Virus record (IMG/VR): IMGVR_UViG_3300022822_000014
Location: 1-64,000 of that record
DNA from: a virus
Direction: 5' to 3' (one strand)
DNA: 64,000 nucleotides
The notes beneath the pieces were generated by a model that saw nothing but the letters and a program-made list of their open reading frames with translations, was not told the origin of the DNA and made no database searches. The position numbers and the translations under genes were made by a program. Shown one piece after another: positions 15,630 through 31,273 of the stretch (position 1 is the stretch's first letter; the number at the start of each line of letters is the position of its first letter).

Positions 15630-15725
15630 ATGCCAAAAATTATTACAGTAACAGGAATAGATATAGGATCAAGAACATCAGAAGACTGTTTATCATGTGA
15701 TGGGTGGATTTTAAAGAAGTTATGA
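15630..15725 (+). CDS. 31-residue ORF containing a free-standing NrdA redox tail
   Basis: ATG at 15630 reads MPKIITVTG, then IDIGSRTSEDCLSCDG, then WILKKL and stop. Fifteen residues equal the NrdA C-terminus including the C-x-x-C. It may be the displaced original end of nrdA, kept after insertion of the nuclease gene with a recoded tail, or an expressed mini-protein. The six extra residues after CDG are not in NrdA as now encoded. Whether it is translated is unknown. Confidence 0.45.
   Translation: MPKIITVTGIDIGSRTSEDCLSCDGWILKKL
15660..15704 (+). repeat. NrdA-tail direct repeat, copy 2
   Basis: Second 45-base copy, 534 bases from copy 1, same amino acids, 40 of 45 bases identical. Confidence 0.9.
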
Positions 15726-15786: not shown

Positions 15787-16986
15787 ATGATTATAGAATT
15801 AAACGATTTTTTAAATACACAAGATTGTGATGCATTAATTAAATTAATAAAGGCAAATAATCAACCTTCCACTGTAGCTGATGCTACAAAAAAAGCTGTA
15901 GTTGATAGTTCAAGAACTTCAACCACTTGTAATTTACCTGCTGATAATGATGTAGTGTTAAGACTAAGTAAAAAAATAGCAAATACTTTAGGAATTAGAA
16001 CAGCCAAAATAGAAGCATTACAAGGACAATTATATAAAGTAGGGCAGGAATTTAAACCCCACTATGACTTCTTTTTAGGCGAACATTATAACCAGCACTG
16101 CTTATCATCAGGTAATCGAACGCAAACACTAATGATTTACTTAAATGATGGTTTGGAAGGTGGTGAAACAGAATTTTCTATTTTAAAACAATCGTTTAAA
16201 CCTACTAAAGGTAAAGCTTTACTATGGAATAACATGATAGACGGTAAAGTAAATAATGATGTATTACATGCAGGAAAACCTATTATAAAAGGAAAAAAAT
16301 ATATTATTACTGCTTGGATTAGAGAAAATGATTGGAACGGCGCAGAAGACAATAGATTAGCACAAGAACATATGGTTAAAAAATCCCACACATTTTCATC
16401 AGCATTAGATTTCCCTAAATTAACAAAAAATGGTTTCGAAGTATTTAAATTTGATGATAAACTATTTAATGACTGTGTTGAAGGAATAATAAGTGTAGCC
16501 GATAAAAGTTATAAAGAGGAATATGCTGGTAAAGATACTACTCAACCCGGTTCATCAACAATTTATCCTATATGGGAAATACCTAATTTAACAAATAAGA
16601 TACACGATTACTTATTACCTAAATTAGAAGCTTGGTGTGGTAAAGAATTAGAAAAAACATTCATATATGGGTTTAGAAATTACCATAAAAATAGTAGTTT
16701 AATCTTACATACTGATAGAATTGAAACACACCAAATTAGTGCTATAATAATGATGTCAAAAGATTTAAGTTGCGGGTGCGGCTATAAAGAATTCGGTGAT
16801 GACTGGGCACTACAAATAAAAGGACATGACGGCGAAACAAATGAAATATTCTTCGAACCACAAGATATGGTATTTTACGAATCAGCAGTATGTGAGCATG
16901 GTAGAATAAAACCATTTGAGGGTAAAGACTATGTTAATTTTTATGTCCACTACAAGTTAAAAAACTACTCTTACATTAATGATTAG
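15787..16986 (+). CDS. Tandem-domain prolyl 4-hydroxylase (2OG-Fe(II) oxygenase)
   Basis: 399 residues containing two complete P4H-type double-stranded beta-helix domains. Domain 1 (about 1-185): FKPHYDFFLG gives H-x-D near 92, ND.LHAGKPI the distal His near 161, and the Lys of GKKYIITAWIR binds 2-oxoglutarate; the TQTLMIYLND and GGETEFSIL strands are typical of P4H alpha subunits. Domain 2 (about 210-399): SLILHTDRIE gives H-x-D near 307 and AVCEHGRIKPFEG the distal His near 371. Both domains look catalytically intact. Prolyl hydroxylation of a protein is the expected reaction. Its 3' end overlaps the next gene by 8 bases, and two glycosyltransferases follow, suggesting that the hydroxyproline made here is then glycosylated. 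Confidence 0.8.
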   Translation: MIIELNDFLNTQDCDALIKLIKANNQPSTVADATKKAVVDSSRTSTTCNLPADNDVVLRLSKKIANTLGIRTAKIEALQGQLYKVGQEFKPHYDFFLGEHYNQHCLSSGNRTQTLMIYLNDGLEGGETEFSILKQSFKPTKGKALLWNNMIDGKVNNDVLHAGKPIIKGKKYIITAWIRENDWNGAEDNRLAQEHMVKKSHTFSSALDFPKLTKNGFEVFKFDDKLFNDCVEGIISVADKSYKEEYAGKDTTQPGSSTIYPIWEIPNLTNKIHDYLLPKLEAWCGKELEKTFIYGFRNYHKNSSLILHTDRIETHQISAIIMMSKDLSCGCGYKEFGDDWALQIKGHDGETNEIFFEPQDMVFYESAVCEHGRIKPFEGKDYVNFYVHYKLKNYSYIND

Positions 16987-17791
16987 TATTCCTTGTGCTG
17001 TAGCAACAAATCATTTTAAGTGGCAAATAAGTTTATTCGAATTTAACCATTTTAAAGTGTACGGAGAAGATGCTTATAGTAAAGCTATAATTCCTATCGT
17101 AAATCGCAATTATAAAAGCGACGCAATAACAACGGAATTAGATTGGGGGCTACGCCTACCACATAAACTAGTAGATAGCGTTTTAGATATGTACAACTTT
17201 ACTGAACCTCGATATATAGTTAATAATGTATTCACAGCAGCTTACCAAGTTACAAGAGATGTAGATGATGAAGAATACCTAGAAATAATAGATGCTGATT
17301 TATTTCATTTAAAAAAATATGATGGTTACCTTCCTAGTGATAACGAAGTAGTTGTAGACGCTACATACGAAAATTGGCATTTAAAAGTAAACAGCGACAA
17401 TAGAAATATTATTCACAAATACTTACACCACAATGATTATCAGTACATGAATGGAGGTTTTAATGTCATACTAAAGAAAAAAGTATTTGACAAAATCTAC
17501 CACGAAGCAGTAGAAACATCAATCAAAGTCAGTGACGAATATCCTAATACTAGCCATAGCTGGTGGGCTTTAATGTATGGGCTTAACGTGGCATGTCACA
17601 ATAGTAAAATTAAAATGGTAGACGGTAAAAATTGTTATTACCCAAACATAAATGAATTAAAAGAATCACACCACATAGCACATTATAGTTGCGACCCCCT
17701 ATTCAATAAAAATAAATTTCACGAAATAAAATGGGATAATTTTCCTAATAACAAATTTTACAAGTCAATTACAGAATGGAAACAATATTAG
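16979..17791 (+). CDS. Glycosyltransferase resembling hydroxyproline O-arabinosyltransferase / peptidyl-serine galactosyltransferase
   Basis: 270 residues. Starts MISIPCAVATNHFKWQISL, where the N-x-F-x-W-Q order recalls the N-terminus of plant HPAT/SGT1 enzymes. EYLEIIDADLFHLKKYDG (about residue 100) offers a D-x-D metal site; YMNGGFNVILKKKVFDKI, WWALMYGLNVACHN and HHIAHYSCDPLFN correspond in order to the nucleotide-sugar and acceptor segments of that family. Sequence similarity is judged by eye and is weak, so the precise sugar is open. The gene overlaps the P4H gene upstream by 8 bases and the GnT1-like gene downstream by 16, making a three-gene translational unit. Confidence 0.45.
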   Translation: MISIPCAVATNHFKWQISLFEFNHFKVYGEDAYSKAIIPIVNRNYKSDAITTELDWGLRLPHKLVDSVLDMYNFTEPRYIVNNVFTAAYQVTRDVDDEEYLEIIDADLFHLKKYDGYLPSDNEVVVDATYENWHLKVNSDNRNIIHKYLHHNDYQYMNGGFNVILKKKVFDKIYHEAVETSIKVSDEYPNTSHSWWALMYGLNVACHNSKIKMVDGKNCYYPNINELKESHHIAHYSCDPLFNKNKFHEIKWDNFPNNKFYKSITEWKQY

Positions 17792-18639
17792 TTTTTATAG
17801 CTTGTCGATTAGACAATGACTTACTTAATACGGTAAACGATTTATTAGACAAAGCCAACGAACCAAATAATTTAGACATAGTAATATATAATCAGGACTT
17901 CGAAGAAGGTATGTGGCAACAATCACAATTCCCAGATAATGTAACATTAATAAACGTAAGAGAAGATAAAACACGAAACGTAACTCAAGTTAGGGCACAC
18001 GCTCATTTATATATAAAACCATCCCACAAATACTACTTATGTATAGATGCTCATACTAGGTTTGATAAGGGGTGGGATAAAATAATGGTAGACGCTGTTG
18101 ATAATTACGATGGGGATTGCTTAATTACCTGTTACCCTAAAGTGTATACTTCAAAAGATGGTGTAGATACTTATAGCAAGCACAACCAACATATGGTAAA
18201 CGTTTTAAAAAGTGACATTCATTGTAATTATAAATTTAGATTCACCGCTGAAGCAATCGAAAACAAAGGCGATTACTATAGATCATTAGGTGCCGGTGGA
18301 TATCATATCAGTGACATATACTGGTTAGCAAATGTAGGTTACGATCCATATGCCGGTTGGCAATTCGAAGAATTAGATATGACATTACGCTCCTACACAA
18401 ACGGATATGATGTAGTAAATTATAAGGATACTCCCATATATCATCTGTATGATCATTCACAGAGAAAATCTATAAAACAACCCACATTTAATTTTGATAT
18501 CGATACTAGGGAACGTATATTAAGTAAGCTACATAAACAAAATTCAACGTTTTTAGAGCATAAGTATCAATTAGGTAATAAACGTAGTATATACGATTGG
18601 ATAGAAGAATACGGCTACGACATTTTTCCTTTAATTTAA
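17776..18639 (+). CDS. Skp1-type hydroxyproline GlcNAc-transferase-like glycosyltransferase (PF11397-like)
   Basis: 287 residues. Starts METILVFIACRLDNDLLNTV, a GT-A entry strand, then VTLINVREDKTRNVTQVRAHAH, YYLCIDAHTRFDKGWDKI (about 85-105) with the D-x-H-x-R-F hallmark of the GnT1 family, and finally YDPYAGWQFEELDMTLR and SYTNGYDVVNYKDTPIYHLY, which fit the E-E-x-x-x-x-x-R-x-x-T-x-G-Y-D and terminal His of the same family. In Dictyostelium and Toxoplasma this enzyme adds GlcNAc to the hydroxyproline that a cytoplasmic P4H makes on Skp1. The P4H gene two genes upstream makes an analogous pathway likely. Substrate protein unknown. Confidence 0.7.
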   Translation: METILVFIACRLDNDLLNTVNDLLDKANEPNNLDIVIYNQDFEEGMWQQSQFPDNVTLINVREDKTRNVTQVRAHAHLYIKPSHKYYLCIDAHTRFDKGWDKIMVDAVDNYDGDCLITCYPKVYTSKDGVDTYSKHNQHMVNVLKSDIHCNYKFRFTAEAIENKGDYYRSLGAGGYHISDIYWLANVGYDPYAGWQFEELDMTLRSYTNGYDVVNYKDTPIYHLYDHSQRKSIKQPTFNFDIDTRERILSKLHKQNSTFLEHKYQLGNKRSIYDWIEEYGYDIFPLI

Positions 18640-20907: not shown

Positions 20908-21435
20908 ATGATAAAATTAATAGATCTCTTAGAAAATAAAATCCTAGTCCCTAGACGTTCCCCTGAAGAACGTTCTAAGAATTATTTAATTGCTACTCAA
21001 AAGAAAATCCAACAATACATGAAGGATGGAAGTAAAGGTAATCTTAATTTAGCAGATACACCAATAACCTCCCTACCTCAAGATTTGAAAGTAGGAGGTA
21101 ATCTCATTTTATATGGGACTAAAATAACCTCCCTACCTCAAGGTTTAACAGTAGGAGGTTTTCTTTATTTAAGAAATACTCTAATAACCTCCCTACCTCA
21201 AGGTTTAACAGTAGGAGGTATTCTTGATTTAACTAATACCCCAATAACCTCTCTACCCCAAGATTTAAAAGTAGGAGGTTCTCTTAATTTATATGGGAGC
21301 AAAATAACCTCCCTACCTCAAGGTTTAACAGTAGGAGGTTATATTGATTTAAGAAATACCCCCATCTCTAAAAAATATAATGAAGAACAAATTAAACAAA
21401 TGGTACCTGGTGTGAAAGGTAAAATTTATATATAA
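20908..21435 (+). CDS. LRR-type repeat protein 1 (five 20-residue units)
   Basis: 175 residues. An invariant N-terminal cap (MIKLIDLLENKILVPRRS, then EERSKNYLIATQKKIQQYM) is followed by five 20-residue units of the form L-x-L-x-x-T-x-I-T-S-L-P-Q-x-L-x-V-G-G and a cap SKKYNEEQIKQMVPGVKG. The unit is exactly 60 bases. The L-P-x-x-L pattern recalls IpaH/YopM-like leucine-rich repeats, so a binding solenoid is expected. It is the first of five tandem paralogues; its TAA is overlapped by the next ATG (TAATG). Function unknown. Confidence 0.7.
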   Translation: MIKLIDLLENKILVPRRSPEERSKNYLIATQKKIQQYMKDGSKGNLNLADTPITSLPQDLKVGGNLILYGTKITSLPQGLTVGGFLYLRNTLITSLPQGLTVGGILDLTNTPITSLPQDLKVGGSLNLYGSKITSLPQGLTVGGYIDLRNTPISKKYNEEQIKQMVPGVKGKIYI

Positions 21436-21902
21436 TGATTAAATTAATAGATCTCTTAGAAAATAAAATACTAGTCCCTAGACGTTCCAAAGAAGAACGC
21501 TCTAAGAATTATTTAATTGCTACCCAAAAGAAAATCCAACAATACATGAAGGATGGGAGTAAAGGTGATCTTGATTTAAAAAATACTCCTATCACCTCAT
21601 TACCTAAAGACTTAACAGTAGGAGGTTCTCTTGATTTAAAAAATACTCCAATAACCTCTCTACCCCAAGATCTAACAGTAGGAAAGGGTATTTATTTAGA
21701 AAATACCCCAATAACCACCCTACCTCAAGGTTTAACAGTAGGAGGTTTTCTTGATTTAGAAAATACTCCAATAACCACCCTACCTCAAGATTTAAAAGTA
21801 GGAGGTAATCTTTATTTAACTAATACCCCCATCTCTAAAAAATATAGTAAAGAACAAATCAAACAAATGGTACCGGGAGTTAAAGGTACTATTTATATAT
21901 AA
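21435..21902 (+). CDS. LRR-type repeat protein 2 (four units)
   Basis: 155 residues with the same caps as copy 1 and four 20-residue units, including an irregular one (LTVGKGIYLENT). Start overlaps the end of copy 1 by one base. An unrelated gene separates it from copy 3. Confidence 0.7.
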   Translation: MIKLIDLLENKILVPRRSKEERSKNYLIATQKKIQQYMKDGSKGDLDLKNTPITSLPKDLTVGGSLDLKNTPITSLPQDLTVGKGIYLENTPITTLPQGLTVGGFLDLENTPITTLPQDLKVGGNLYLTNTPISKKYSKEQIKQMVPGVKGTIYI

Positions 21903-21913
21903 AAAACAACAAT

Positions 21914-22663
21914 ATGAAATTTAATTTTTCAAAACTCTTAATTGAGAATAAACATTCAATATTAGAAAACATAAGACAGGCAAAACAATATGTTGAATCC
22001 GGTAAACTAACCCAAGAGGAGTTAAAAATATTAACTGATATAGACCCTTCCCCAACACGTAAGTATGTAGGATGGATGGCAAAACAATGGGCAGAAAAAC
22101 AAATTACAGATATAGATGATTTAAGAAACACCATTGAAGAGTTCAATACACTCTTAGAAAAAGGTAAAACAAAAACCAAAGATATTTACCAAATTAAATC
22201 ATTTAAAGCCCTTCAAGACGAAGTTGGCCAAATAAACAACTCAGGAGAAAACATATCTACCCGAGAACTTGAATCCGACTACGATACTGTATTAGAGAAT
22301 TCAGATCTATTAATAATGTCCCCCCACACCCACGAAGCATCTCGTAAACTTGGATTATCCCAATTTGCATTTAGAGATTGTGGGGATGATGGAAAAGATT
22401 CTTCATGGTGTACAACATATAAAGCCCCCGATCACTTTAATGATTATTACTATACAAATAATGTAACTTTTTATTATGTTAAAGTAAAGTCACAGCAAAT
22501 GATAAACCAACTTCAGGATAAATTTCCAAAAACTTGGAAGAATTTAGTAGTTGTTGCTTTGGCGGTATTAGATAATGGGAACATTGATGGGTATGATGGG
22601 TTAGATAAACAAATTTCAAAGGGTAATATAAAAGAATATACTGATATTATAGGAATTTCATAA
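21914..22663 (+). CDS. Hypothetical protein, 249 aa, embedded in LRR array
   Basis: Starts MKFNFSKLLIENKHSILEN and is helical to about residue 120; the C-terminal half has DSSWCTTYKAPDHFNDYYY and NVTFYYVKVK, a W-C-T-T-x-x-x-x-x-x-F-x-x-Y arrangement that I associate with conserved proteins of unknown role in large phages. It ends with its stop overlapping the ATG of LRR copy 3 (TAATG). Being locked inside the LRR operon suggests it works with those proteins, possibly as the partner they bind. Confidence 0.5.
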   Translation: MKFNFSKLLIENKHSILENIRQAKQYVESGKLTQEELKILTDIDPSPTRKYVGWMAKQWAEKQITDIDDLRNTIEEFNTLLEKGKTKTKDIYQIKSFKALQDEVGQINNSGENISTRELESDYDTVLENSDLLIMSPHTHEASRKLGLSQFAFRDCGDDGKDSSWCTTYKAPDHFNDYYYTNNVTFYYVKVKSQQMINQLQDKFPKTWKNLVVVALAVLDNGNIDGYDGLDKQISKGNIKEYTDIIGIS

Positions 22664-23250
22664 TGATTAAACTATTAGACATATTAGAAAATAAAATCCT
22701 AGTCCCTAGACGCTCCCCTGAGGAACGTTCTAAGAACTTTTTAATTGCTACTCAAAAGAAGATTCAACAGTATATGAAGGATGGAAGTAAAGGTGATCTT
22801 GATTTAGCAGGTACACCAATAACCTCCCTACCTCAAGGTTTAACAGTAGGGGGTTATCTTGACTTAATAAATACTCTAATAACCTTCCTACCTCAAGGTT
22901 TAACAGTAGGAGGTGATCTTTATTTAGCAGGTACACCAATAACCTCCCTCCCTCAAGAGTTAACAGTAGGAGGTAATCTTGATTTATATGGGAGCAAAAT
23001 AACCTCTCTACCTCAAGGCTTAACAGTAGGAGGTTATCTTGATTTAAGAAATACCCCAATAACCACCCTACCTCAAGGTTTAACAGTAGGAGGTTATATT
23101 TATTTATCTAATACTAAAATAACCACCCTACCGCAAGGCTTAACAGTAGGAGGTTCTCTTTATTTAAAAAATACCCCCATTTCTAAAAAATACTCTAAAG
23201 AACAAATTAAACAAATGGTACCTGGTGTGAAAGGTAAAATTACTATATAA
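22663..23250 (+). CDS. LRR-type repeat protein 3 (six units)
   Basis: 195 residues, same caps, six 20-residue units. The N-terminus differs slightly (MIKLLDILENK). TAATG overlap with copy 4. Confidence 0.7.
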   Translation: MIKLLDILENKILVPRRSPEERSKNFLIATQKKIQQYMKDGSKGDLDLAGTPITSLPQGLTVGGYLDLINTLITFLPQGLTVGGDLYLAGTPITSLPQELTVGGNLDLYGSKITSLPQGLTVGGYLDLRNTPITTLPQGLTVGGYIYLSNTKITTLPQGLTVGGSLYLKNTPISKKYSKEQIKQMVPGVKGKITI

Positions 23251-23897
23251 TGATAAAATTAATAGATCTATTAGAAAATAAAATTTTAGTCCCTAGACGT
23301 TCTCCTGAAGAACGTTCTAAGAACTTTTTAATTGCTATGCAAAAGAAAGTACAACAATACATAAAAGATGGGAGTAAAGGGGATCTTGATTTAAGTAATA
23401 CCCCAATAACCTCCCTACCTCAAGATTTAACAGTAGGAGGTTTTCTTTATTTAAGAAATACTAAAATAACCTCCCTACCCCAAGGCTTAAAAGTAAAAGG
23501 TGCTCTTTATTTATCATATACTCCTATCACCGCATTACCTAAAGACTTAACAGTAGGGGGTTCTCTTGATTTAGAAAATACTCCAATAACCACCCTACCT
23601 CAAGGTTTAACAGTAGGAGGTTATCTTGATTTACAGAATACTCCAATAACCTCATTACCCCGAGGTTTAACAGTAGGAGGTAATCTTGTTTTAACTAATA
23701 CCACAATAACCACCCTACCCCAAGATTTAAAAGTAGGACGTAATCTTGATTTAACTAATACCCCAATAACCACCCTACCCCAAGGTTTAACAGTAGGAGG
23801 TTGGCTTGATTTAAGAATTACCCCCATCTCTAAAAAATACTCTAAAGAACAAATTAAACAAATGGTAACTGGTATAAAAGGTGAAATTTATATATAA
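23250..23897 (+). CDS. LRR-type repeat protein 4 (seven units)
   Basis: 215 residues, the longest copy, seven 20-residue units; includes LKVKGALYLSYT, a unit variant shared with copy 5 and suggesting exchange of units between genes. TAATG overlap with copy 5. Confidence 0.7.
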   Translation: MIKLIDLLENKILVPRRSPEERSKNFLIAMQKKVQQYIKDGSKGDLDLSNTPITSLPQDLTVGGFLYLRNTKITSLPQGLKVKGALYLSYTPITALPKDLTVGGSLDLENTPITTLPQGLTVGGYLDLQNTPITSLPRGLTVGGNLVLTNTTITTLPQDLKVGRNLDLTNTPITTLPQGLTVGGWLDLRITPISKKYSKEQIKQMVTGIKGEIYI

Positions 23898-24484
23898 TGA
23901 TTAAACTAATAGATCTATTAGAAAATAAAATATTAGTCCCTAGACGTTCCAAAGAAGAACGCTCTAAGAATTATATAATTGCTACCCAAAAGAAAGTACA
24001 ACAATATATGAAGGATGGAGGTAAAGGTACTCTTGACTTATACGGTACCCCAATAACCTCCCTACCTCAAGGTTTAACAGTAGGACGTAATCTTGTTTTA
24101 TATGGGAGCAAAATCACCTCCCTACCTCAAAATTTAAAAGTAGGAGGTTATCTTGATTTACAGAATACTCCAATAACCTCCCTCCCCCAAGGCTTAAAAG
24201 TAAAAGGTGCTCTTTATTTATATAAGAGCAAAATAACCTCCCTCCCCCAAGGCTTAACAGTAGGAGGTGATCTTTATTTAGATAATACCCCAATAACCAC
24301 CCTACCCCAAGATTTAAAAGTAGGAGAGTACCTTAATTTAAGGGATACCCAAATAACCTCCCTACCCCAAGATCTAACAGTAGGAGGTAATCTTAATCTA
24401 GCTAATACCCCCACCTCTAAAAAATATAGTAAAGAACAAATTAGACAAATGGTACCTGGTGTGAAAGGTGAAATTATTATATAA
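23897..24484 (+). CDS. LRR-type repeat protein 5 (six units)
   Basis: 195 residues, same caps, six units; the last cap reads TSKKYSKEQIRQMVPGVKG. It ends the array; a promoter box follows at 24522. Confidence 0.7.
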   Translation: MIKLIDLLENKILVPRRSKEERSKNYIIATQKKVQQYMKDGGKGTLDLYGTPITSLPQGLTVGRNLVLYGSKITSLPQNLKVGGYLDLQNTPITSLPQGLKVKGALYLYKSKITSLPQGLTVGGDLYLDNTPITTLPQDLKVGEYLNLRDTQITSLPQDLTVGGNLNLANTPTSKKYSKEQIRQMVPGVKGEIII

Positions 24485-25049: not shown

Positions 25050-25137
25050 GGAAGGTTGGCAGAGTTGGTCGATTGCACCAGTCTTGAAAACTGGAGGTGT
25101 GTTAAAGCATTCGTGGGTTCGAATCCCACATCTTCCT
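25050..25137 (+). tRNA. tRNA-Ser(TGA)
   Basis: Acceptor GGAAGGT pairs with ATCTTCC, anticodon loop CTTGAAA, long variable arm as expected for Ser, T arm TGGG-TTCGAAT-CCCA. No encoded CCA. Confidence 0.88.
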
Positions 25138-25145
25138 CAAAAGAT

Positions 25146-25220
25146 TCTACCCTGATATGAAGGCTGGCCTAACGGTCCGGCTGATATGCTTGGTAGAGGA
25201 CATAGGAGACCGGCTCCTAT
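25146..25220 (+). other. Structured spacer (two hairpins)
   Basis: TCTACC (25146-25151) pairs with GGTAGA (25192-25197) around a GC-rich core in which CTGATATG occurs twice; then ATAGGAG pairs with CTCCTAT (25202-25220, 5-base loop). No tRNA fold was found. Confidence 0.4.
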
Positions 25221-25224
25221 ATTT

Positions 25225-25296
25225 TAGACTGTGGTATAACGGTTATTACATTTGACTTTGACTCAAATAATGGGAGTTCGATTCTCTCCAGTCTAA
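25225..25296 (+). tRNA. tRNA-Gln(TTG)
   Basis: TAGACTG pairs with CAGTCTA; anticodon stem TTTGA/TCAAA with loop CTTTGAC. Confidence 0.88.
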
Positions 25297-25304
25297 CAAT
25301 AATA

Positions 25305-25379
25305 CGGGTAGTATTCTCGGGGTGAGAAGCTCGGTTTGGAGCCGAGAGGCGGGAAGTTCAACTCTTCTCTACCCGACCA
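25305..25379 (+). tRNA. tRNA-Pro(TGG)
   Basis: CGGGTAG pairs with CTACCCG, stem CTCGG/CCGAG, loop TTTGGAG; ACCA follows, so CCA is encoded here. Confidence 0.85.
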
Positions 25380-25385
25380 TTAGTA

Positions 25386-25543
25386 ATATGGTAGGCATAC
25401 CATATAAAATAAAAGATTAAGCTTAATATCATAATAAGCTCTCTTAGCCATAGAGGTAACTGCGACAACAGGTTTAAATGTAATGATATCAAATCATTTA
25501 AATGTAGGTGGGTGTTATACCCACAAAACTTTTATTTAAGTTT
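25386..25543 (+). other. Structured spacer with tRNA-like remnants
   Basis: Opens with an 8-bp hairpin (ATATGGTA/TACCATAT, loop GGCA, 25386-25405). Near 25490-25535 there is a 9-bp ATTTAAATG/CATTTAAAT hairpin and a T-arm-like GTGGG-TGTTATA-CCCAC, but no matching acceptor stem, so no tRNA is called. Confidence 0.3.
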
Positions 25544-25614
25544 GCCCTTTAAGCTTTAAGGTGAAGCACGATACTTTTAATATCGGGAAGTAGGATCGTT
25601 ACCTACAAGGGGTA
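25544..25614 (+). tRNA. tRNA-Lys(TTT)
   Basis: Stem CGATA/TATCG with loop CTTTTAA; T arm GTAGG/CCTAC with loop ATCGTTA. Acceptor GCCCTTT/AAGGGGT includes a G1-U72 pair. Confidence 0.8.
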
Positions 25615-25674
25615 CAAAGTGGTTAGGTTTAGAGAAATCCGGGTATTGGCTTTAATAATACAAAAACTCTAATT

Positions 25675-25745
25675 GCCTCGTTGGCGTAATGGAAGCGTAA
25701 TTGTTTTACATGCAATTGGCAGTGGTTCGATTCCACTACGAGGTA
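25675..25745 (+). tRNA. tRNA-Val(TAC)
   Basis: GCCTCGT/ACGAGGT acceptor (G1-U72), anticodon stem ATTGT/GCAAT with loop TTTACAT, T arm GTGG-TTCGATT-CCAC. Confidence 0.82.
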
Positions 25746-25844
25746 CAAAATTAGTTGGGTGTATATAAATACGGTACTGTAATATCGTTAATTGCATTTA
25801 CTAGTCTATTTGTTTGGAGATTACAGTCTTCTTAAAGATAGTTG

Positions 25845-25934
25845 TTTTGTGTGGTGAAATTGGGATACACGACCCATTCTAAGGGTTGAAGTTACCGCAA
25901 GGTCTTCGTATAGGTTCAAGTCCTATCACAAAAT
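25845..25934 (+). tRNA. Class II (Leu-like) tRNA body with TCT anticodon
   Basis: TTTTGTG/CACAAAA acceptor, D arm GTGAAATTGGGATACAC as in Leu tRNAs, 5-bp stem GACCC/GGGTT with 7-base loop ATTCTAA (anticodon TCT, Arg), long variable arm with GAAG/CTTC and ACC/GGT pairs, T arm ATAGG-TTCAAGT-CCTAT. Body and anticodon disagree: the anticodon reads AGA while the long arm is typical of Leu, Ser or Tyr. A normal Arg(TCT) tRNA is at 28589. Confidence 0.65.
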
Positions 25935-25939
25935 CAATT

Positions 25940-26020
25940 GGGGACAGAAAGTCGTTCGGATACGACAGCGAGACTGTAAATCTCGTCCGCAAGGGAGTGG
26001 TTCGAATCCACCTGGCCCCA
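25940..26020 (+). tRNA. tRNA-Tyr(GTA)
   Basis: GGGGACA/TGGCCCC acceptor with one mismatch, stem CGAGA/TCTCG, loop CTGTAAA, long variable arm TCCGCAAGGGA. Confidence 0.85.
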
Positions 26021-26071
26021 CCGGTAGCTGTTTTTGTATTTCCTTACTATTTATTAGAAAGGAAGTACATT

Positions 26072-26731
26072 ATGGCAAAGAAAGAATACGGTACAAGAAA
26101 GAAGTACCATTTTATTTATAAAACTACAAATACACTAAGCGGAAGATATTATATAGGAATGCATTCAACGGATGATTTGAATGATGGGTATTTAGGATCT
26201 GGAACGTATTTAAAAAGATCTATAAATAAACATGGAAAAGAAAATCATTCAGTTGAGATCTTAGAATTTTTAAATTCAAGAGAAGGCTTAGCAGCAAGAG
26301 AAAAAGAAATAGTATCTCTTCAAGAAATTGCTAAGAAAGAATGTATGAATTTGAAAGTAGGGGGTAAAGGAGGCTTTTCAACAGAAGTACAGAAAAGAGG
26401 TTCAATAGCAGGAAATTTAGAAAAAACCAGATTAAGAAAAGAAGACCCTGCATTTAGAGCAAGGTTCACCAAAGTTATGTCAGAATGCATGAAGAAACAG
26501 TTTCTAGAGGGAAAACGAACATCTTTTAACATAGGACAGTGGATAGGAAAAAAACACACAGAAGCGACTAAGCTAAAAATGAGTAAATCAGCATCAAACA
26601 AACCACCTGAACAGAATTCACAATTCGGCACATGTTGGATAACTAATGAAGTTGAAAGCAAAAAGATTAAAAAAGGCGATGATATTACAGAAGGTTGGAG
26701 ATTAGGACGAATAGTGAATATCGTGGCGTAA
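26072..26731 (+). CDS. GIY-YIG homing endonuclease, NUMOD3 type, in tRNA array
   Basis: 219 residues from ATG 26072. An in-frame start at 25886 was rejected because it would run through two tRNAs. The GIY-YIG domain is at 10-95: HFIYKTTNTLSGRYYIGMHS, LGSGTYLKRSINKHGKENH, then the Glu of AAREKEIVS and N-L-K-V-G-G-K-G-G. The C-terminal half has the NUMOD-type G-K-K-H-T-E-A-T-K-L-K-M-S motif and binds DNA. These genes spread by cutting tRNA or gene targets lacking them. It shares about half of its N-domain residues with the enzyme at 27688. Confidence 0.85.
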   Translation: MAKKEYGTRKKYHFIYKTTNTLSGRYYIGMHSTDDLNDGYLGSGTYLKRSINKHGKENHSVEILEFLNSREGLAAREKEIVSLQEIAKKECMNLKVGGKGGFSTEVQKRGSIAGNLEKTRLRKEDPAFRARFTKVMSECMKKQFLEGKRTSFNIGQWIGKKHTEATKLKMSKSASNKPPEQNSQFGTCWITNEVESKKIKKGDDITEGWRLGRIVNIVA

Positions 26732-26815
26732 GCCCCATTAGTACGACGATATAAAATAAACGAGAAAGGGCGAAAGCACACTAGCTAGAAGGTGTAAGTA
26801 GCAACGAAGGGATAT

Positions 26816-26891
26816 GGAATTTTTGTGTAGATGGTTCGCACGCTAGTCTGAAGAACTAGAGGAGAAGGTTCGATTCCTTCAGATTCCACCA
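26816..26891 (+). tRNA. tRNA-Phe(GAA)
   Basis: GGAATTT/AGATTCC, stem CTAGT/ACTAG with loop CTGAAGA; discriminator A and encoded CCA. Confidence 0.88.
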
Positions 26892-26896
26892 TTATA

Positions 26897-26977
26897 TTAC
26901 GATGCAGGTGCGTTGACTGTTCCATTGGCAGTACCGGTAGATATACCCAATGAAGGTTCGAGTCCTTTAATCGTAAC
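26897..26977 (+). tRNA. tRNA-like element, anticodon not assignable
   Basis: A perfect 7-bp acceptor TTACGAT/ATCGTAA and a T arm GAAGG-TTCGAGT-CCTTT are present, but the middle contains an ATTGG/CCAAT hairpin instead of a normal anticodon arm. Could be a decayed tRNA or an unusual RNA. Confidence 0.4.
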
Positions 26978-27064
26978 AACTACATCGTAGTTAGTTGCTT
27001 CTACCCCACAGAACCATAACTGAGAAGCTTATAGAGGGGTGACTAATAGGAGAGACTAAATCCA

Positions 27065-27141
27065 GGGTTGGTAGCTAAGTGGTAAAGCATTTGCCTGTTA
27101 AGTAAAAGATTCCGTGGGTTCGACCCCCACCCAACCCTCCA
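27065..27141 (+). tRNA. tRNA-Asn(GTT)
   Basis: GGGTTGG/CCAACCC, anticodon stem TTTGC/GTAAA, loop CTGTTAA; CCA encoded. Confidence 0.87.
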
Positions 27142-27143
27142 AT

Positions 27144-27200
27144 TAGTTTATAGGAAGTCCTGCCCTTGAGTTCTAGTGATTGTATCAAAAACTCTAAAAA
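27144..27200 (+). repeat. Inter-tRNA spacer repeat, copy 1
   Basis: TAGTTTATAGG, then CCTTGAGTTCTA, then TCAAAAACTCTAAAAA: the same order as at 31077-31128. Contains a GAGTT/AACTC hairpin. Each copy follows a tRNA with encoded CCA. Confidence 0.55.
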
Positions 27201-27206
27201 GACCCA

Positions 27207-27279
27207 CGGAGTGTAGCTCAATCGGTAGAGCGTTCGCCTGATACGCGAAAGGTAGTAGGATCGTAACCTACCATTCCGA
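27207..27279 (+). tRNA. tRNA-Ile(GAT)
   Basis: CGGAGTG/CATTCCG, stem TTCGC/GCGAA, loop CTGATAC, D arm GCTCAATCGGTAGAGC. Confidence 0.88.
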
Positions 27280-27284
27280 CAAAA

Positions 27285-27370
27285 GGAAGATAAACTATGA
27301 TGGTGATTAGGGTATCCTGCTAAGATAATCGTGCTATAAAAGGCATTCGGTTCGATTCCGATTTCTTCCT
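27285..27370 (+). tRNA. tRNA-Ser(GCT)
   Basis: GGAAGA/TCTTCC acceptor core, loop CTGCTAA, long variable arm, T arm TTCGG-TTCGATT-CCGAT. Confidence 0.78.
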
Positions 27371-27376
27371 CAAAAT

Positions 27377-27448
27377 ACTAATATAGCTCAATGGTAGAGC
27401 GGCTCTTTCATACGGAGTAGGTTGATGGTTCGATTCCATCTATTGGTA
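27377..27448 (+). tRNA. tRNA-Met(CAT) or Ile2
   Basis: ACTAATA/TATTGGT, anticodon stem GCTCT/GGAGT, loop TTCATAC. One of three CAT tRNAs; which is initiator, elongator or Ile(CAU) is not decided by the sequence. Confidence 0.82.
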
Positions 27449-27453
27449 CTATA

Positions 27454-27562
27454 TTTAAAACCGCTCGGGTTCAAACATAGAAATATGTGGAGGATAATTC
27501 AGTCACCCGCACCTCGTAAGAGACAACTATAGACTGACACGTAAGGAAAGTGGGAGCCTTAC
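27454..27562 (+). other. Structured spacer before tRNA-His
   Basis: Contains a CATA-GAAA-TATG hairpin and a GTAAGG/CCTTAC hairpin (27541-27560); no tRNA fold found. Confidence 0.3.
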
Positions 27563-27568
27563 AAACAT

Positions 27569-27641
27569 GGTGTTTGTAGTTCAATGGTAGAATGTTTGAC
27601 TGTGAATCAAAAGACGAAGGATCGATACCTTCCTTACACCC
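27569..27641 (+). tRNA. tRNA-His(GTG)
   Basis: Stem TTTGA/TCAAA, loop CTGTGAA, T arm GAAGG/CCTTC, discriminator C as expected for His; acceptor has two mismatches at its base. Confidence 0.82.
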
Positions 27642-27664
27642 GGTATACTTTTTGAAACAGTTAG

Positions 27665-27673
27665 CTATTTATA
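27665..27673 (+). promoter_or_regulatory. Late-type promoter motif CTATTTATA
   Basis: Fifteen bases before the ATG of the GIY-YIG gene at 27688. Confidence 0.45.
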
Positions 27674-27687
27674 ATAAACAAACATAA

Positions 27688-28368
27688 ATGGCTAACTATT
27701 CAAAAAAGAAGAAATACCACTTTACTTATAAAACAACAAATATAATAAACAGTAGATATTACCTAGGAATGCATTCAACTAACCGTATCGATGACGGATA
27801 TTTAGGAAGCGGTACAAGACTACGCTACGAAGTAACTAAGTACGGTAGAGACAATTTTAAGGTTGAGATAATTAAGTATTTTAATTCAAGAGAAGACCTA
27901 GTTCAAGCTGAAATGCAGTTAATAACAGAACAGGATCTAAACAGTGTAAACTGCTTAAACTTAATAACAGGAGGAAATGGATTTAGTATAGAAACTTCTA
28001 GGTGTGCAAATGAGATTAGAAAACAGAAATTACAACAGGACGTAGATTGGAGAGAGGCATATATACTAAAACTTAAAGATACAAAAAAAGAGTGGGTAAA
28101 AAATCTAACACAGCAGGACAAAGACACTATCTCTAAAAAAATAAAAAGAGGTCTAAAAAAAAGCGGACATATTCATAACTCTTTTCTAGGAAAAAAACAC
28201 TCGAAAGAGACTATACTTAAGATGAAAAAAGCTAAAATAGGACAGGGGTGTGGGAATAAAAACTCACAATACGGAAAACCAAGGAGTGAGGAAACTAAAA
28301 AAAAGATAAGAGAAAGTCTTAGGAAGACTCGTGAAATGAAAAAAAATGCCCATATGGTGAAACGGTAA
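27688..28368 (+). CDS. GIY-YIG homing endonuclease in tRNA array
   Basis: 226 residues. N-terminal GIY-YIG domain: HFTYKTTNIINSRYYLGMHS (residues 11-30), YLGSGTRLRYEVTKYGRDNF, AEMQLITEQ and N-L-I-T-G-G-N-G-F; C-terminal NUMOD3 repeats with F-L-G-K-K-H-S-K-E-T-I-L and Y-G-K-P-R-S-E-E-T. It has its own late-type box. Its last seven codons overlap the 5' end of the following tRNA-Leu gene, so insertion did not destroy the tRNA but used its sequence as coding end. Confidence 0.87.
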   Translation: MANYSKKKKYHFTYKTTNIINSRYYLGMHSTNRIDDGYLGSGTRLRYEVTKYGRDNFKVEIIKYFNSREDLVQAEMQLITEQDLNSVNCLNLITGGNGFSIETSRCANEIRKQKLQQDVDWREAYILKLKDTKKEWVKNLTQQDKDTISKKIKRGLKKSGHIHNSFLGKKHSKETILKMKKAKIGQGCGNKNSQYGKPRSEETKKKIRESLRKTREMKKNAHMVKR

Positions 28369-28420
28369 ACACAACAGGTTTAAGCCCTGTAAGCTGTAGG
28401 TTCGAATCCTACTATGGGTA
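28348..28420 (+). tRNA. tRNA-Leu(TAA), short variable loop
   Basis: GCCCATA/TATGGGT acceptor (G1-U72), stem ACAGG/CCTGT, loop TTTAAGC. The variable region is only AAGCT, not the long arm expected for Leu. Overlaps the end of the upstream GIY-YIG gene by 21 bases. Confidence 0.8.
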
Positions 28421-28511
28421 CAATAAGGAAGAGCTAGAGAGTCCTAAATGATATCTAAAATCTCCTCGCAGTTTTTAAGATTGGTTTTTTGCTTTAAAAA
28501 ATCCTTCAAAT

Positions 28512-28583
28512 GGCTTTATAGTTTAATGGACAGAACCTTCGGCTACGAACCGAAAAATGGGAGTTCGAATCTCTCTAAAGCCT
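28512..28583 (+). tRNA. tRNA-Arg(ACG)
   Basis: GGCTTTA/TAAAGCC, stem TTCGG/CCGAA, loop CTACGAA. Confidence 0.87.
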
Positions 28584-28588
28584 CAACT

Positions 28589-28660
28589 ACCTCCATAGTT
28601 AAATGGACATAACAAAACTCTTCTAAAGTTTAGATCCAAGTTCGATTCTTGGTGGAGGTT
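28589..28660 (+). tRNA. tRNA-Arg(TCT)
   Basis: ACCTCCA/TGGAGGT, stem AAACT/AGTTT, loop CTTCTAA; reads the AGA codon that dominates Arg use in these genes. Confidence 0.87.
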
Positions 28661-28670
28661 CAAACAAAAT

Positions 28671-28739
28671 GCTTCTCGGGCTAAGGTAGCCAAATAGTCT
28701 CCAAAACTATAGGACAAGGTTCGATTCCTTGGGGTTGCG
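28671..28739 (+). tRNA. tRNA-Trp(CCA)
   Basis: Stem ATAGT/ACTAT, loop CTCCAAA, T arm CAAGG-TTCGATT-CCTTG. Acceptor GCTTCTC/GGGTTGC contains two T-T mismatches. Confidence 0.75.
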
Positions 28740-28764
28740 CAAACATTAACTTAATTATTAACTC

Positions 28765-29274
28765 ATGAAAAATCGTTATGACAAAACACTAGTGGTTGAT
28801 TCAAGCTACATTGCAAGAAGCATCATTACTACCGAAAGAGCTTTCGTGATTTCGTATAAAGGTAATGCTGATGTAGTAGTTGAACACCCTGAAACATTTG
28901 GAGTTGTAAACCCCAAACTAGAAATTTTTAAACCATCTGTTATTAGAGTCTACACTTATGTAAAACTAGAATACCAGAAAGTAGCTCTAACAAGAGATAA
29001 TGTATTTAAAAGAGATGGACATGAATGCGTATACTGCGGTTGTAATAACAGAAAAACACTTACATTAGATCACGTAGTACCACAATCAAAAGGAGGACCA
29101 AACACTTGGGATAACTTAGTAACTGCTTGTAAAGTTTGTAATAACGAAAAAGCAAATTTAACATTAAAAGAATACGGTAGGGAAATACCTAAACCAAAAA
29201 GACCACACTACTTAATGTTATTAAAGAAAACAAGTTTTATACCTGAAGAGTGGAAACCTTACCTATTATTCTAG
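28765..29274 (+). CDS. HNH endonuclease
   Basis: 169 residues. The HNH core is at about 78-125: VFKRDGHECVYCGC (first zinc Cys pair), TLDHVVPQSKGGPNTWDNLVT (catalytic D-H, then N) and ACKVCNNEKAN (second Cys pair). This short McrA-like HNH protein is of a type frequently seen in Bacteroidota genomes and phages. In the tRNA array it may be a free-standing homing endonuclease or a nuclease used in DNA processing. Confidence 0.82.
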   Translation: MKNRYDKTLVVDSSYIARSIITTERAFVISYKGNADVVVEHPETFGVVNPKLEIFKPSVIRVYTYVKLEYQKVALTRDNVFKRDGHECVYCGCNNRKTLTLDHVVPQSKGGPNTWDNLVTACKVCNNEKANLTLKEYGREIPKPKRPHYLMLLKKTSFIPEEWKPYLLF

Positions 29275-29280
29275 GTAGAT

Positions 29281-29350
29281 GAGTGAGTTGTTCTTGGAGA
29301 ACAGTTGGTTTGCAAAACCAATAGAGTAGGTTCGATTCCTACCTTACTCT
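29281..29350 (+). tRNA. tRNA-Cys(GCA)
   Basis: GAGTGAG/CTTACTC, stem TTGGT/ACCAA, loop TTGCAAA. Starts 6 bases after the HNH stop codon. Confidence 0.87.
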
Positions 29351-29390
29351 CAAAAATAAACATAAAAAAATTAGGATATACAGTAAATAG

Positions 29391-29402
29391 TTCGTATATT
29401 TA
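29391..29402 (+). promoter_or_regulatory. Promoter box TTCGTATATTTA, second tRNA unit
   Basis: Exact consensus with upstream AAAAAAATTAGGATATACAG like the 24805 and 24997 copies. Confidence 0.6.
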
Positions 29403-29418
29403 TATATAATAAAGATAG

Positions 29419-29439
29419 GTTCATTGACATATTGGATAA
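29419..29439 (+). promoter_or_regulatory. boxA-like leader of tRNA array, copy 2
   Basis: Identical 21 bases to 25026-25046, again directly before a tRNA. Confidence 0.45.
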
Positions 29440-29442
29440 ATT

Positions 29443-29515
29443 GCTCGTGTGGTGGAATGGTATACACGGCCGTCTTAGAAACGGTCTTTTGCAGGTTCGA
29501 GTCCTGCCATGAGTA
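29443..29515 (+). tRNA. tRNA-Leu(TAG), short variable loop
   Basis: GCTCGTG/CATGAGT (G1-U72), Leu-like D arm, stem GCCGT/ACGGT with loop CTTAGAA, but variable region is CTTTT only. Confidence 0.8.
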
Positions 29516-29535
29516 CAAAAACTGTTCGAGTACTA

Positions 29536-29700
29536 ATTATGACTTATCACTCTAATTAGGAAGTAGTGGGCAAATATATTAAAGGTTATTAATCAATAAA
29601 CTACCTAGAATAGTTCTGATACTGGACTTGAGATTAAAGCGGTTGGATCCCGAAGTGTTAACAGGTTTATAAGGGTAAGCTAAGTTACTGTTAGTGCAAA
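29536..29700 (+). other. Gene-free spacer with hairpins
   Basis: CTAATTA pairs with TAATTAG near 29536-29562 and TAACAG with CTGTTA near 29660-29696. No tRNA or ORF seen. Confidence 0.25.
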
Positions 29701-29705
29701 ATTAT

Positions 29706-29808
29706 AGCTGTGAAATCATTGGTTGATAGCACCTCTCCAGGGTTAAGTTTAACGATAAGTTCACTTAGAATTGTAAAGCCGGATTAGGTTCGAATCCTAA
29801 CATAGCTA
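29706..29808 (+). tRNA. Oversized tRNA-like RNA, 103 nt
   Basis: AGCTGTG/CATAGCT acceptor with discriminator A, D arm ATCA-TTGGT-TGAT and T arm TTAGG-TTCGAAT-CCTAA are good, but about 60 bases lie between D and T arms and no standard anticodon stem is seen (best candidate CTCTCCAGG is poor). Confidence 0.4.
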
Positions 29809-29820
29809 CAAAATTAAAAT

Positions 29821-29973
29821 GGTCCTATATATAGTAGTGGATCGCTCCTACTACTATCAGTGGGATAACGTTACGGCTTTTGGTTTAACACTTCTTATAC
29901 TAGTTTGAAGAGAAAAGTTAAAACATTAGAGTAAGTAACTTATCAAAGGTTGGTTCGATTCCAACTAGGGCTA
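29821..29973 (+). tRNA. Oversized tRNA-like RNA, 153 nt, with 10-bp inserted hairpin
   Basis: GGTCCTA/TAGGGCT acceptor and T arm GTTGG-TTCGATT-CCAAC fit a tRNA, but a 10-bp hairpin (ATAGTAGTGG with CCTACTACTAT region, 29831-29857) replaces the D arm and about 90 more bases follow. Interrupted or degenerate tRNA. Confidence 0.4.
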
Positions 29974-30043
29974 CAAAATACAAGTTAGACGTTCGAAGGA
30001 GAACTTAAAAGGTATTCAAACCACCATTCTAACTTATAATATT

Positions 30044-30140
30044 AAGAGAGTTAGTGAAGCTAGGACAAGCTGGAATAGGATAAAGGTTTATCCCCAGTCC
30101 CAGATATTTCTAGAAACCTCGAAAGACCCGAAGCTCTCTT
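30044..30140 (+). ncRNA. 97-nt structured RNA candidate
   Basis: Closed by AAGAGAG/CTCTCTT (7 bp, perfect), with an internal GGATAAA-GG-TTTATCC hairpin. No T-loop consensus, so not a tRNA. Confidence 0.35.
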
Positions 30141-30146
30141 ATATTT

Positions 30147-30218
30147 GCCTCTAAAGCATAAATGGTAATGTGCCCGGTTTGTACCCGGAGGAACAGGGTT
30201 CGATTCCTTGTAGAGGCT
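30147..30218 (+). tRNA. tRNA-Thr(TGT)
   Basis: GCCTCTA/TAGAGGC, stem CCGG/CCGG, loop TTTGTAC. Confidence 0.85.
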
Positions 30219-30219
30219 C

Positions 30220-30278
30220 AAAAGTAAATTAACCTCGCTTAACGATAATATCACCGAGGGAGGTCAATGTTTACTTTT
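30220..30278 (+). ncRNA. 59-nt structured RNA candidate
   Basis: Closed by AAAAGTAAA/TTTACTTTT (9 bp, perfect) with inner CCTCG/CGAGG stem; fills the whole space between tRNA-Thr and tRNA-Gly. Confidence 0.4.
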
Positions 30279-30281
30279 AAT

Positions 30282-30353
30282 GCGAATATAGTATAGTGGC
30301 TATTATGTCTGGCTTCCAACCAGAGGACGAGAGTTCGATTCTCTCTATTCGCT
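30282..30353 (+). tRNA. tRNA-Gly(TCC)
   Basis: GCGAATA/TATTCGC, stem TCTGG/CCAGA, loop CTTCCAA. Confidence 0.88.
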
Positions 30354-30395
30354 CGAACAGCCCGAAGTACAAGGGAACGAAGATAGAGATTACAG

Positions 30396-30436
30396 ATATG
30401 AGTTGAAATAACAAATACCTTCGGGTACACTCATAT
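30396..30436 (+). ncRNA. 41-nt structured RNA candidate
   Basis: ATATGAGT/ACTCATAT (8 bp) encloses a TACC-TTCG-GGTA tetraloop hairpin. Confidence 0.35.
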
Positions 30437-30507
30437 AGGCGTGGATGCTCTCCAAATCGTAGGTTGGTACAGTTGGTAACTCTGGGAATATTACAAAAGT
30501 TACAAAT

Positions 30508-30579
30508 GCTCCTGTCGACAACTGGCTAAGTCACTACCCTTTCACGGTAGAGTAGAGGGATCGATACCCTCCAGGAGTA
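30508..30579 (+). tRNA. tRNA-Glu(TTC)
   Basis: GCTCCTG/CAGGAGT (G1-U72), stem CTACC/GGTAG, loop CTTTCAC. Confidence 0.86.
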
Positions 30580-30589
30580 CTTTTATTAA

Positions 30590-30771
30590 AAATTCTTTGC
30601 TTAAAGATAGACATAGTGAAAGCATTCCCTGATAGAAAAGGCGAGAAAGACCACAATTGAAAGTGGATAGCTATAGACTGTATCAGCAGTTGTGTTTATT
30701 GTAAAGGTATTGGTGATTAGGTTCATAGCGTTAAGAGCGTGATATTACACTGAAATTTGTACAAAGAGTTT
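30590..30771 (+). ncRNA. 182-nt structured RNA candidate
   Basis: AAATTCTTTG pairs with CAAAGAGTTT over 10 bp (one G-U) and spans the entire spacer between tRNA-Glu and tRNA-Ala. Inner folding not resolved. Confidence 0.35.
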
Positions 30772-30781
30772 TTAATAATTT

Positions 30782-30854
30782 GGGGATATGGTGAAATTGG
30801 CTATCATAGTAGATTTGCATTCTACTGTTCCGAGTTCGAGCCTCGGTTTCTCCA
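30782..30854 (+). tRNA. tRNA-Ala(TGC)
   Basis: Stem GTAGA/TCTAC, loop TTTGCAT, T arm CCGAG/CTCGG; acceptor GGGGATA/TTTCTCC with one mismatch. Confidence 0.83.
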
Positions 30855-30922
30855 CGAGATATCTACCCTAGGTAGGTGTTTTACTCAAGGTTTTATTGGT
30901 TGTACCTCAACAACCAATACCT

Positions 30923-30994
30923 AGCTTCATAGTTAAACGGCTATAATGTCGCCCTGTCACGGCGAAGTTCGGAGTTCGATTCTCCGTGGAGCTG
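30923..30994 (+). tRNA. tRNA-Asp(GTC)
   Basis: AGCTTCA/TGGAGCT, stem TCGCC/GGCGA, loop CTGTCAC, discriminator G as in Asp. Confidence 0.86.
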
Positions 30995-31000
30995 CATATT

Positions 31001-31073
31001 GCGGTTTGGTGTAATTGGTAGCATGAGGGGCTCATAACCCCAAGGCGAGGTTCGAGTCCTTAATCCGCTTCCA
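31001..31073 (+). tRNA. tRNA with CAT anticodon (Met or Ile2)
   Basis: GCGGTTT/AATCCGC with one mismatch, stem GGGG/CCCC, loop CTCATAA; CCA appears encoded after two T. Confidence 0.8.
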
Positions 31074-31076
31074 AAA

Positions 31077-31128
31077 TAGTTTATAGGTCGTTCTGTCCTT
31101 GAGTTCTATTTCAAAACTCTAAAAAAGG
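31077..31128 (+). repeat. Inter-tRNA spacer repeat, copy 2
   Basis: Same element as 27144-27200, slightly shorter, again after a tRNA with CCA. Confidence 0.55.
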
Positions 31129-31131
31129 CTA

Positions 31132-31206
31132 GGTCATGTAGCTAAGTTTGGTAAGGCAGCTCGCTCATAACGAGAAGATTCATAGGTTCGAATCCTATCA
31201 TGACCA
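31132..31206 (+). tRNA. tRNA with CAT anticodon (Met or Ile2), last of array
   Basis: GGTCATG/CATGACC, stem CTCG/CGAG with loop CTCATAA, T arm ATAGG/CCTAT. Confidence 0.84.
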
Positions 31207-31273
31207 CATTTAATTTTATCCAATAAGTTAAACATTGAAATACCTTTAAAAAACAGATAACATTAGTTTCTTC

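Follow-up and report, generated by a model that had tools for sequence, protein, structure and literature searches.

A phage gene cassette for predicted prolyl hydroxylation and hydroxyproline glycosylation, and its relatives beside proline-repeat proteins

The 64,000-nucleotide stretch of viral DNA analysed here, referred to below as the window, is part of a 90,405-base IMG/VR virus record. A second record, G001 (121,930 bases), is mostly 97-99% identical to the window's record over most of its length. Three consecutive genes of the window form the subject of this study:

15787-16986, plus strand: gene 1, 399 aa, two-domain 2OG oxygenase
15787-16380, plus strand: domain 1 of gene 1 (residues 1-198), P4H-type 2OG-Fe(II) oxygenase
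16393-16986, plus strand: domain 2 of gene 1 (residues 203-399), second, distinct 2OG-type domain with HxD...H
16979-17791, plus strand: gene 2, 270 aa, HPAT-like glycosyltransferase with a predicted GT-A fold and a DxD motif at D105-D107
17776-18639, plus strand: gene 3, 287 aa, PF11397 (Skp1 GnT1-type) glycosyltransferase with a DxH motif at D91-H93

The coordinates of the open reading frames agree with the earlier note on this DNA, which described three overlapping genes; genes 1 and 2 share 8 bases, and genes 2 and 3 share 16. The trio is flanked by nucleotide-metabolism genes, with no recognised virion gene adjoining. Upstream, a short copy of the ribonucleotide reductase coding end (GSRTSEDCLSCDG) lies at 15651-15705, about 0.5 kb beyond the end of the gene itself at 15173, and is possibly the trace of a duplication or of an inserted gene. 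Elsewhere in the window, a run of tandem short genes at 20908-24484 carries leucine-rich-repeat-like repeats such as TPITSLPQDLTVGG; its copies are 80-90% alike at the DNA level, and their number apparently differs between the window's record and G001. The window also holds 24 tRNA genes (25050-31207), a phage-encoded Nol-like carbamoyltransferase (35412-37079) and a phage-encoded GroEL-like chaperonin (50395-52035). A further expanded family, at least 10 tandem short genes of the form MKEYKVKVYNNRTEWYN...HREDGPAVE, occupies L011:9696-14876 (about 72696-77876 of the record).

By sequence and predicted fold, domain 1 of gene 1 is a prolyl 4-hydroxylase. It matches PF13640 (2.8e-15), and in a phmmer search its residues 2-182 matched prolyl 4-hydroxylases of the PDB, with 5iax, 3itq and 5hv0 at about 2e-26 and human C-P4H 7zsc at 1.5e-18; the matching P4H chains were bacterial, algal, chloroviral and human (2e-26 to 3e-16). 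The best PDB match of its predicted fold (Foldseek) was 3gze, an algal P4H in complex with a (Ser-Pro)5 peptide (2.7e-16, TM 0.77 by target). The Fe ligands H92, D94 and H161 and the 2OG lysine K171 were invariant across 16 aligned phage homologues. Domain 1 also has homologues at 31-39% identity among phage P4H-like auxiliary genes, such as those of Microcystis phage Mel-JY01 and Erwinia phage Y3. Domain 2 matched phrog_2954 (2.1e-14), and its H308, D310 and H371 were invariant on alignment, but it has no conserved 2OG lysine: position 380 varies among K, E, T and N, and the invariant basic residue is R373. The suggestion that both domains carry HxD...H together with the 2OG lysine therefore holds in full for domain 1, and for domain 2 only with respect to HxD...H. 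Because the expected lysine is not conserved, we file domain 2 as 2OG-type rather than as P4H. Its counterpart is a stand-alone 194-aa gene (L009:5420-6004; 42% identity), and in phages of the L009 type this homologue is the sole gene of these two 2OG types found in the 36-kb record, so that it is probably active as a hydroxylase unaided. An operon of cyanophage S-SCSM1 (L302:3054-5471) comprises two 2OG oxygenases and a protein O-fucosyltransferase-like gene; the second of the oxygenases is a relative of domain 2, at 42.6% identity.

The assignment of gene 2 to the HPAT-like family, made from the letters alone, is supported through its homologues and a GT-A model. Taken by itself, the window protein falls below the cut-off of PF23452 (HPAT) and has no significant Pfam match; the profile was matched by 9 of the 18 family members scanned (best 2.7e-7). 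The L009 relative, 54% identical to the window protein, reached 28.5 bits (1.3e-6) and the L210 relative 26.2 bits, against a cut-off of 23.9. The model of gene 2 (pLDDT 85) matches GT-A glycosyltransferases at E values of about 1e-4 and TM of about 0.5; the closest PDB folds are GT6 enzymes, also at a TM of about 0.5. Invariant residues of the family include D105 and D107 of the DxD motif and the stretch H235-Y236-x-C238-D239. No relatives of gene 2 or gene 3 were found among 50,697 named phage records, and a pattern scan sensitive only to fairly close homologues returned no HPAT relatives from the genome_contigs collection (84,980 species). In L210, a 287-kb jumbo virus record, and its relative L211, a GDSL-lipase-like domain is fused to the HPAT-like domain (L210:8383-9837 and L211:8383-9840); the 2OG genes are separate there, and the fusion again follows a proline-rich protein.

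For gene 3, the HMM bore out the reading as a Skp1 GnT1-type transferase (PF11397 at 4e-25; 89.5 bits, with the cut-off at 21). Relatives at 47-49% identity occupy the same place in L028 and L029, and the DxH motif is also kept in more distant ones (22-25%), which occur in crAss-like phages. The third gene of some cassette relatives is instead 269 aa long and lacks a clear Pfam match. In L286:8250-10862 and L287:8851-11823, which adjoin (PT)n proteins, the two-domain P4H and the PF11397 transferase are separated by a radical SAM/SPASM gene that possibly provides a further modification of the repeats.

Profile scans of IMG/VR with gene 2 yielded 28 and then 44 viral loci, in which the usual order is X-Pro-repeat protein, 2OG or 2OG-2OG gene, HPAT-like gene, and then a PF11397 gene, the 269-aa gene or another. 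Between the 2OG gene and the HPAT gene, the overlap is typically 4 bases, and it is 4-8 in most loci. Since this order with its short overlaps recurs in many viral contigs at 45-60% protein identity, the arrangement of the trio is not a chance one. The recurrence also bears on whether the glycosyltransferases build or decorate a surface polysaccharide, the 2OG gene being an unrelated neighbour. Near 59-67 kb of its record the phage does encode further glycosyltransferases, together with an NAD-dependent epimerase and a UDP-GlcNAc 2-epimerase, which would suit that explanation. Such a role nonetheless does not account for the fixed and overlapping 2OG/HPAT pair or for its adjacency to X-Pro proteins, and we regard it as very improbable.

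Among the 37 loci with more than 300 nt of upstream sequence, 30 have an X-Pro-repeat protein, defined by 12 or more prolines within 30 residues, immediately upstream or sometimes one gene away; in the L189/L190/L036 group, a methyltransferase-like gene separates it from the cassette. The seven others are L176-178, which form the window's own cluster, L184, L030, and L037 and L191, where the contig probably ends within the upstream gene. In L045 and L048, with too little upstream sequence to be counted, the repeat protein lies downstream. When the HPAT proteins were clustered at about 85% identity, 16 of 17 clusters included a locus with a repeat protein, the exception being the window's own. 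The key link between the repeat-bearing relatives and the window is L183 (the same locus as L028): it carries the trio of the window and, 17 nt ahead of it, a gene for a 435-aa (SPTP)n protein. DegT aminotransferase and GNAT acetyltransferase genes directly follow the cassette in L186:9821-11460 and L184:6866-8556, which suggests synthesis of a sugar donor within the same operon, with an N-acetylated amino sugar as the donor.

The repeats are of the types (PT)n, (PV)n, (SPTP)n, APTPVPV and PPTPP. The residue ahead of a repeat proline is T, V, A or S in about 95% of cases, and the repeats thus fit the non-contiguous hydroxyproline glycomodule described for plants and Chlamydomonas (PMC5552477). 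Many of the repeat proteins alternate their repeats with short globular domains that are common to different phage types, which suggests that fibre and cassette form a mobile module. Because these domains are shared between lineages, cassette and X-Pro proteins may move as a single unit, and the phage types are accordingly not fully independent of one another. Judging from neighbouring virion genes and, in some cases, from fusion to virion-protein sequence, the repeat proteins are probably part of the particle.

From the observed gene order, overlaps, family membership, conserved catalytic residues and recurrent X-Pro-repeat neighbours, we infer an activity, an order of action, a target and the attachment of a sugar. 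The predicted 2OG oxygenase would act first, hydroxylating prolines within X-Pro stretches; the two glycosyltransferases, HPAT-like and PF11397, would then put sugars on the resulting hydroxyprolines. In the wider family, the most likely target would be a particle protein of the phage itself, the proline-repeat protein whose gene lies immediately upstream. The result may be a stiff, sugar-coated polyproline-II rod bearing small globular, probably receptor-binding, domains, comparable to the hydroxyproline-rich glycoproteins of plants and algae. On balance, we favour the view that the three genes constitute one operon for a two-step protein modification, directed in the wider family at the proline-repeat particle protein encoded upstream. 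The joint pathway put forward in the earlier note, which joined the three enzymes by inference, gains a genomic context in several phage types, where the P4H/2OG-HPAT pair, with or without PF11397, lies downstream of X-Pro-repeat proteins. The cassette is real and conserved, and its proposed mechanism is well supported by this context.

The two enzymatic steps could also be separate, with the 2OG enzyme hydroxylating proline and the glycosyltransferases placing sugars on the threonine or serine of TP and SP repeats. Many repeats are indeed rich in these residues, and PF11397 relatives adjoin (PT)n or proline-rich proteins without a nearby P4H in L228, L237, L241, L243 and L283. Many other repeats, however, are (VP)n with few hydroxyl residues, the HPAT gene is tightly coupled to the 2OG gene (an overlap of 4-8 bases in most loci), and the known relatives of the two transferases, HPAT and GnT1, act on hydroxyproline (PMC5552477; for Skp1, PMC3515798 and PMC9485057). 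On this evidence, threonine or serine as the sugar-bearing residue appears decidedly unlikely, and we retain hydroxyproline as the preferred site.

Virion genes in the neighbourhood indicate that cassette carriers belong to several phage types (crAss-like, siphovirus-like and jumbo). One group is crAss-like and has a PF25729 muzzle alongside the virion protein phrog_14478; a second comprises phrog_38559 phages related to Nonlabens phage P12024, their nearest named relative, which has a flavobacterium host; and a third comprises phages with a tape-measure gene. A large protein is common to L183, L210 and L211, and its L183 copy has a peptidase S74 domain. Two control sets were examined. When 80 loci were picked for a (PT)n pattern in their DNA, the second 2OG domain was nearby in only one and a P4H-like gene in five; proline-threonine repeat proteins are thus also common without the cassette and do not need it. 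The other set, picked through an unrelated virion gene, consisted of 54 crAss-like contigs that had 2.5 kb or more of downstream sequence. A repeat protein together with a downstream cassette enzyme was found in 11, an enzyme only in 1, a repeat only in 0 and neither in 42, counts that shift somewhat with the proline threshold. The corresponding Fisher value of 1e-10 is inflated, as the cassette trait is nearly confined to one clade: a tree of the crAss-like virion protein explains the cassette label with about two changes, and the split of 11 against 42 therefore cannot count as independent evidence. The association in crAss-like phages is consistent with a functional link and is not strong independent proof of one. 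In 5 of the 11 co-occurrences, moreover, the enzyme was a PF11397 transferase without a P4H, which keeps threonine or serine glycosylation alive as an explanation. Cultured-phage P4H genes, including those of the Mel-JY01 and Y3 type, were checked for repeat-protein neighbours and had none.

The phage from which the window derives is the exception to this pattern. The earlier note had seen no substrate in the window, and we found none there; the candidate substrate occurs in relatives. No X-Pro-repeat protein was present in the 90.4 kb of this phage, in the 122-kb G001 or in the 63-kb L029 record, and no collagen-like Gly-X-Y targets were found in the window, the 90-kb record or G001. A search of the window's genome for homologues of the large and the repeat-bearing virion proteins of the relatives was likewise negative. 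A protein encoded at G001:87229-87996 on the minus strand, containing KIPKIPNPIPNIPNPIPKIPNPI, was considered as a target in this lineage and set aside as only a lead, being not alternating X-Pro and lying outside the window's record. For the window itself, our claim is one of predicted chemistry and not of target; the latter may lie in an unsequenced part of the genome, or may consist of a few X-Pro sites in another phage or host protein. A host target, for instance a translation factor or a surface protein, would mean that the cassette, in the window's phage at least, serves as a module for host takeover. The setting of the trio between nucleotide-metabolism genes, apart from recognised virion genes, and the lack of a repeat target in this genome both fit such a role, and the bacterial P4H structures matching domain 1 include some that, going by their entry titles, act on elongation factor Tu (5v7y, 4iw3). 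Against this stand the 16 of 17 HPAT clusters that adjoin an X-Pro-repeat protein, among them that of L183, which has the same three genes, and we consider a host target unlikely.

The preferred reading, hydroxylation followed by glycosylation of an X-Pro protein, can be set beside several known systems. In plants, (SP)n modules are hydroxylated and O-glycosylated, and they are glycosylated in Chlamydomonas, which has HPAT homologues (PMC5552477). The phage set resembles this hydroxyproline-rich glycoprotein pathway in its P4H-type hydroxylase, whose fold best matches the algal enzyme with (Ser-Pro)5, in its HPAT-family transferase and, in cassette relatives, in alternating X-Pro repeats as candidate substrates. 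It differs in being one operon of compact enzymes without a secretory pathway, with an extra second 2OG domain and often a third gene. Skp1 of Dictyostelium and Toxoplasma is hydroxylated and then glycosylated (PMC3515798, PMC9485057, PMC11570480). That pathway shares with the cassette the sequence of a P4H followed by a PF11397-type transferase; unlike the cassette, it modifies a single proline of Skp1 and serves oxygen sensing. The phage set adds an HPAT-like gene, its likely targets are repeats, and no Skp1 is expected; to our knowledge, none exists in bacteria. Chlorovirus PBCV-1 likewise encodes a P4H, but it is a eukaryotic algal virus and its enzyme has a single domain. We know of no HPAT linked to the PBCV-1 P4H. 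Hydroxyproline in viral proteins was proposed for this virus (Eriksson 1999, as cited in PMC9301287; PDB 5c5t), and P4H genes of environmental viruses have been counted in a Baltic Sea survey that calls the viral use of P4H "cryptic" (PMC9301287). The auxiliary P4H genes of the Mel-JY01 and Y3 type have a homologous domain 1 and lack both an annotated glycosyltransferase neighbour of the cassette kind and an adjoining X-Pro protein. A search of an open-access library of papers found no description of such a cassette, in line with the earlier impression that it was undescribed.

O-glycosylation of hydroxyproline is considered a modification of eukaryotes, namely plants, algae and some protists. 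We put at about even the chance that bacterial viruses of several types make true hydroxyproline-O-glycoproteins, with an X-Pro-repeat fibre of the particle hydroxylated and glycosylated by a mobile P4H-HPAT(-GnT1) operon, as the phage equivalent of the extensins and arabinogalactan proteins of plants. If this is true, the range of hydroxyproline O-glycosylation would come to include bacteria and their viruses, hydroxyproline glycans could be made in bacteria with a compact enzyme set from a single operon, and the modification would suggest why some phages build long TP, VP and SP repeats into their proteins.
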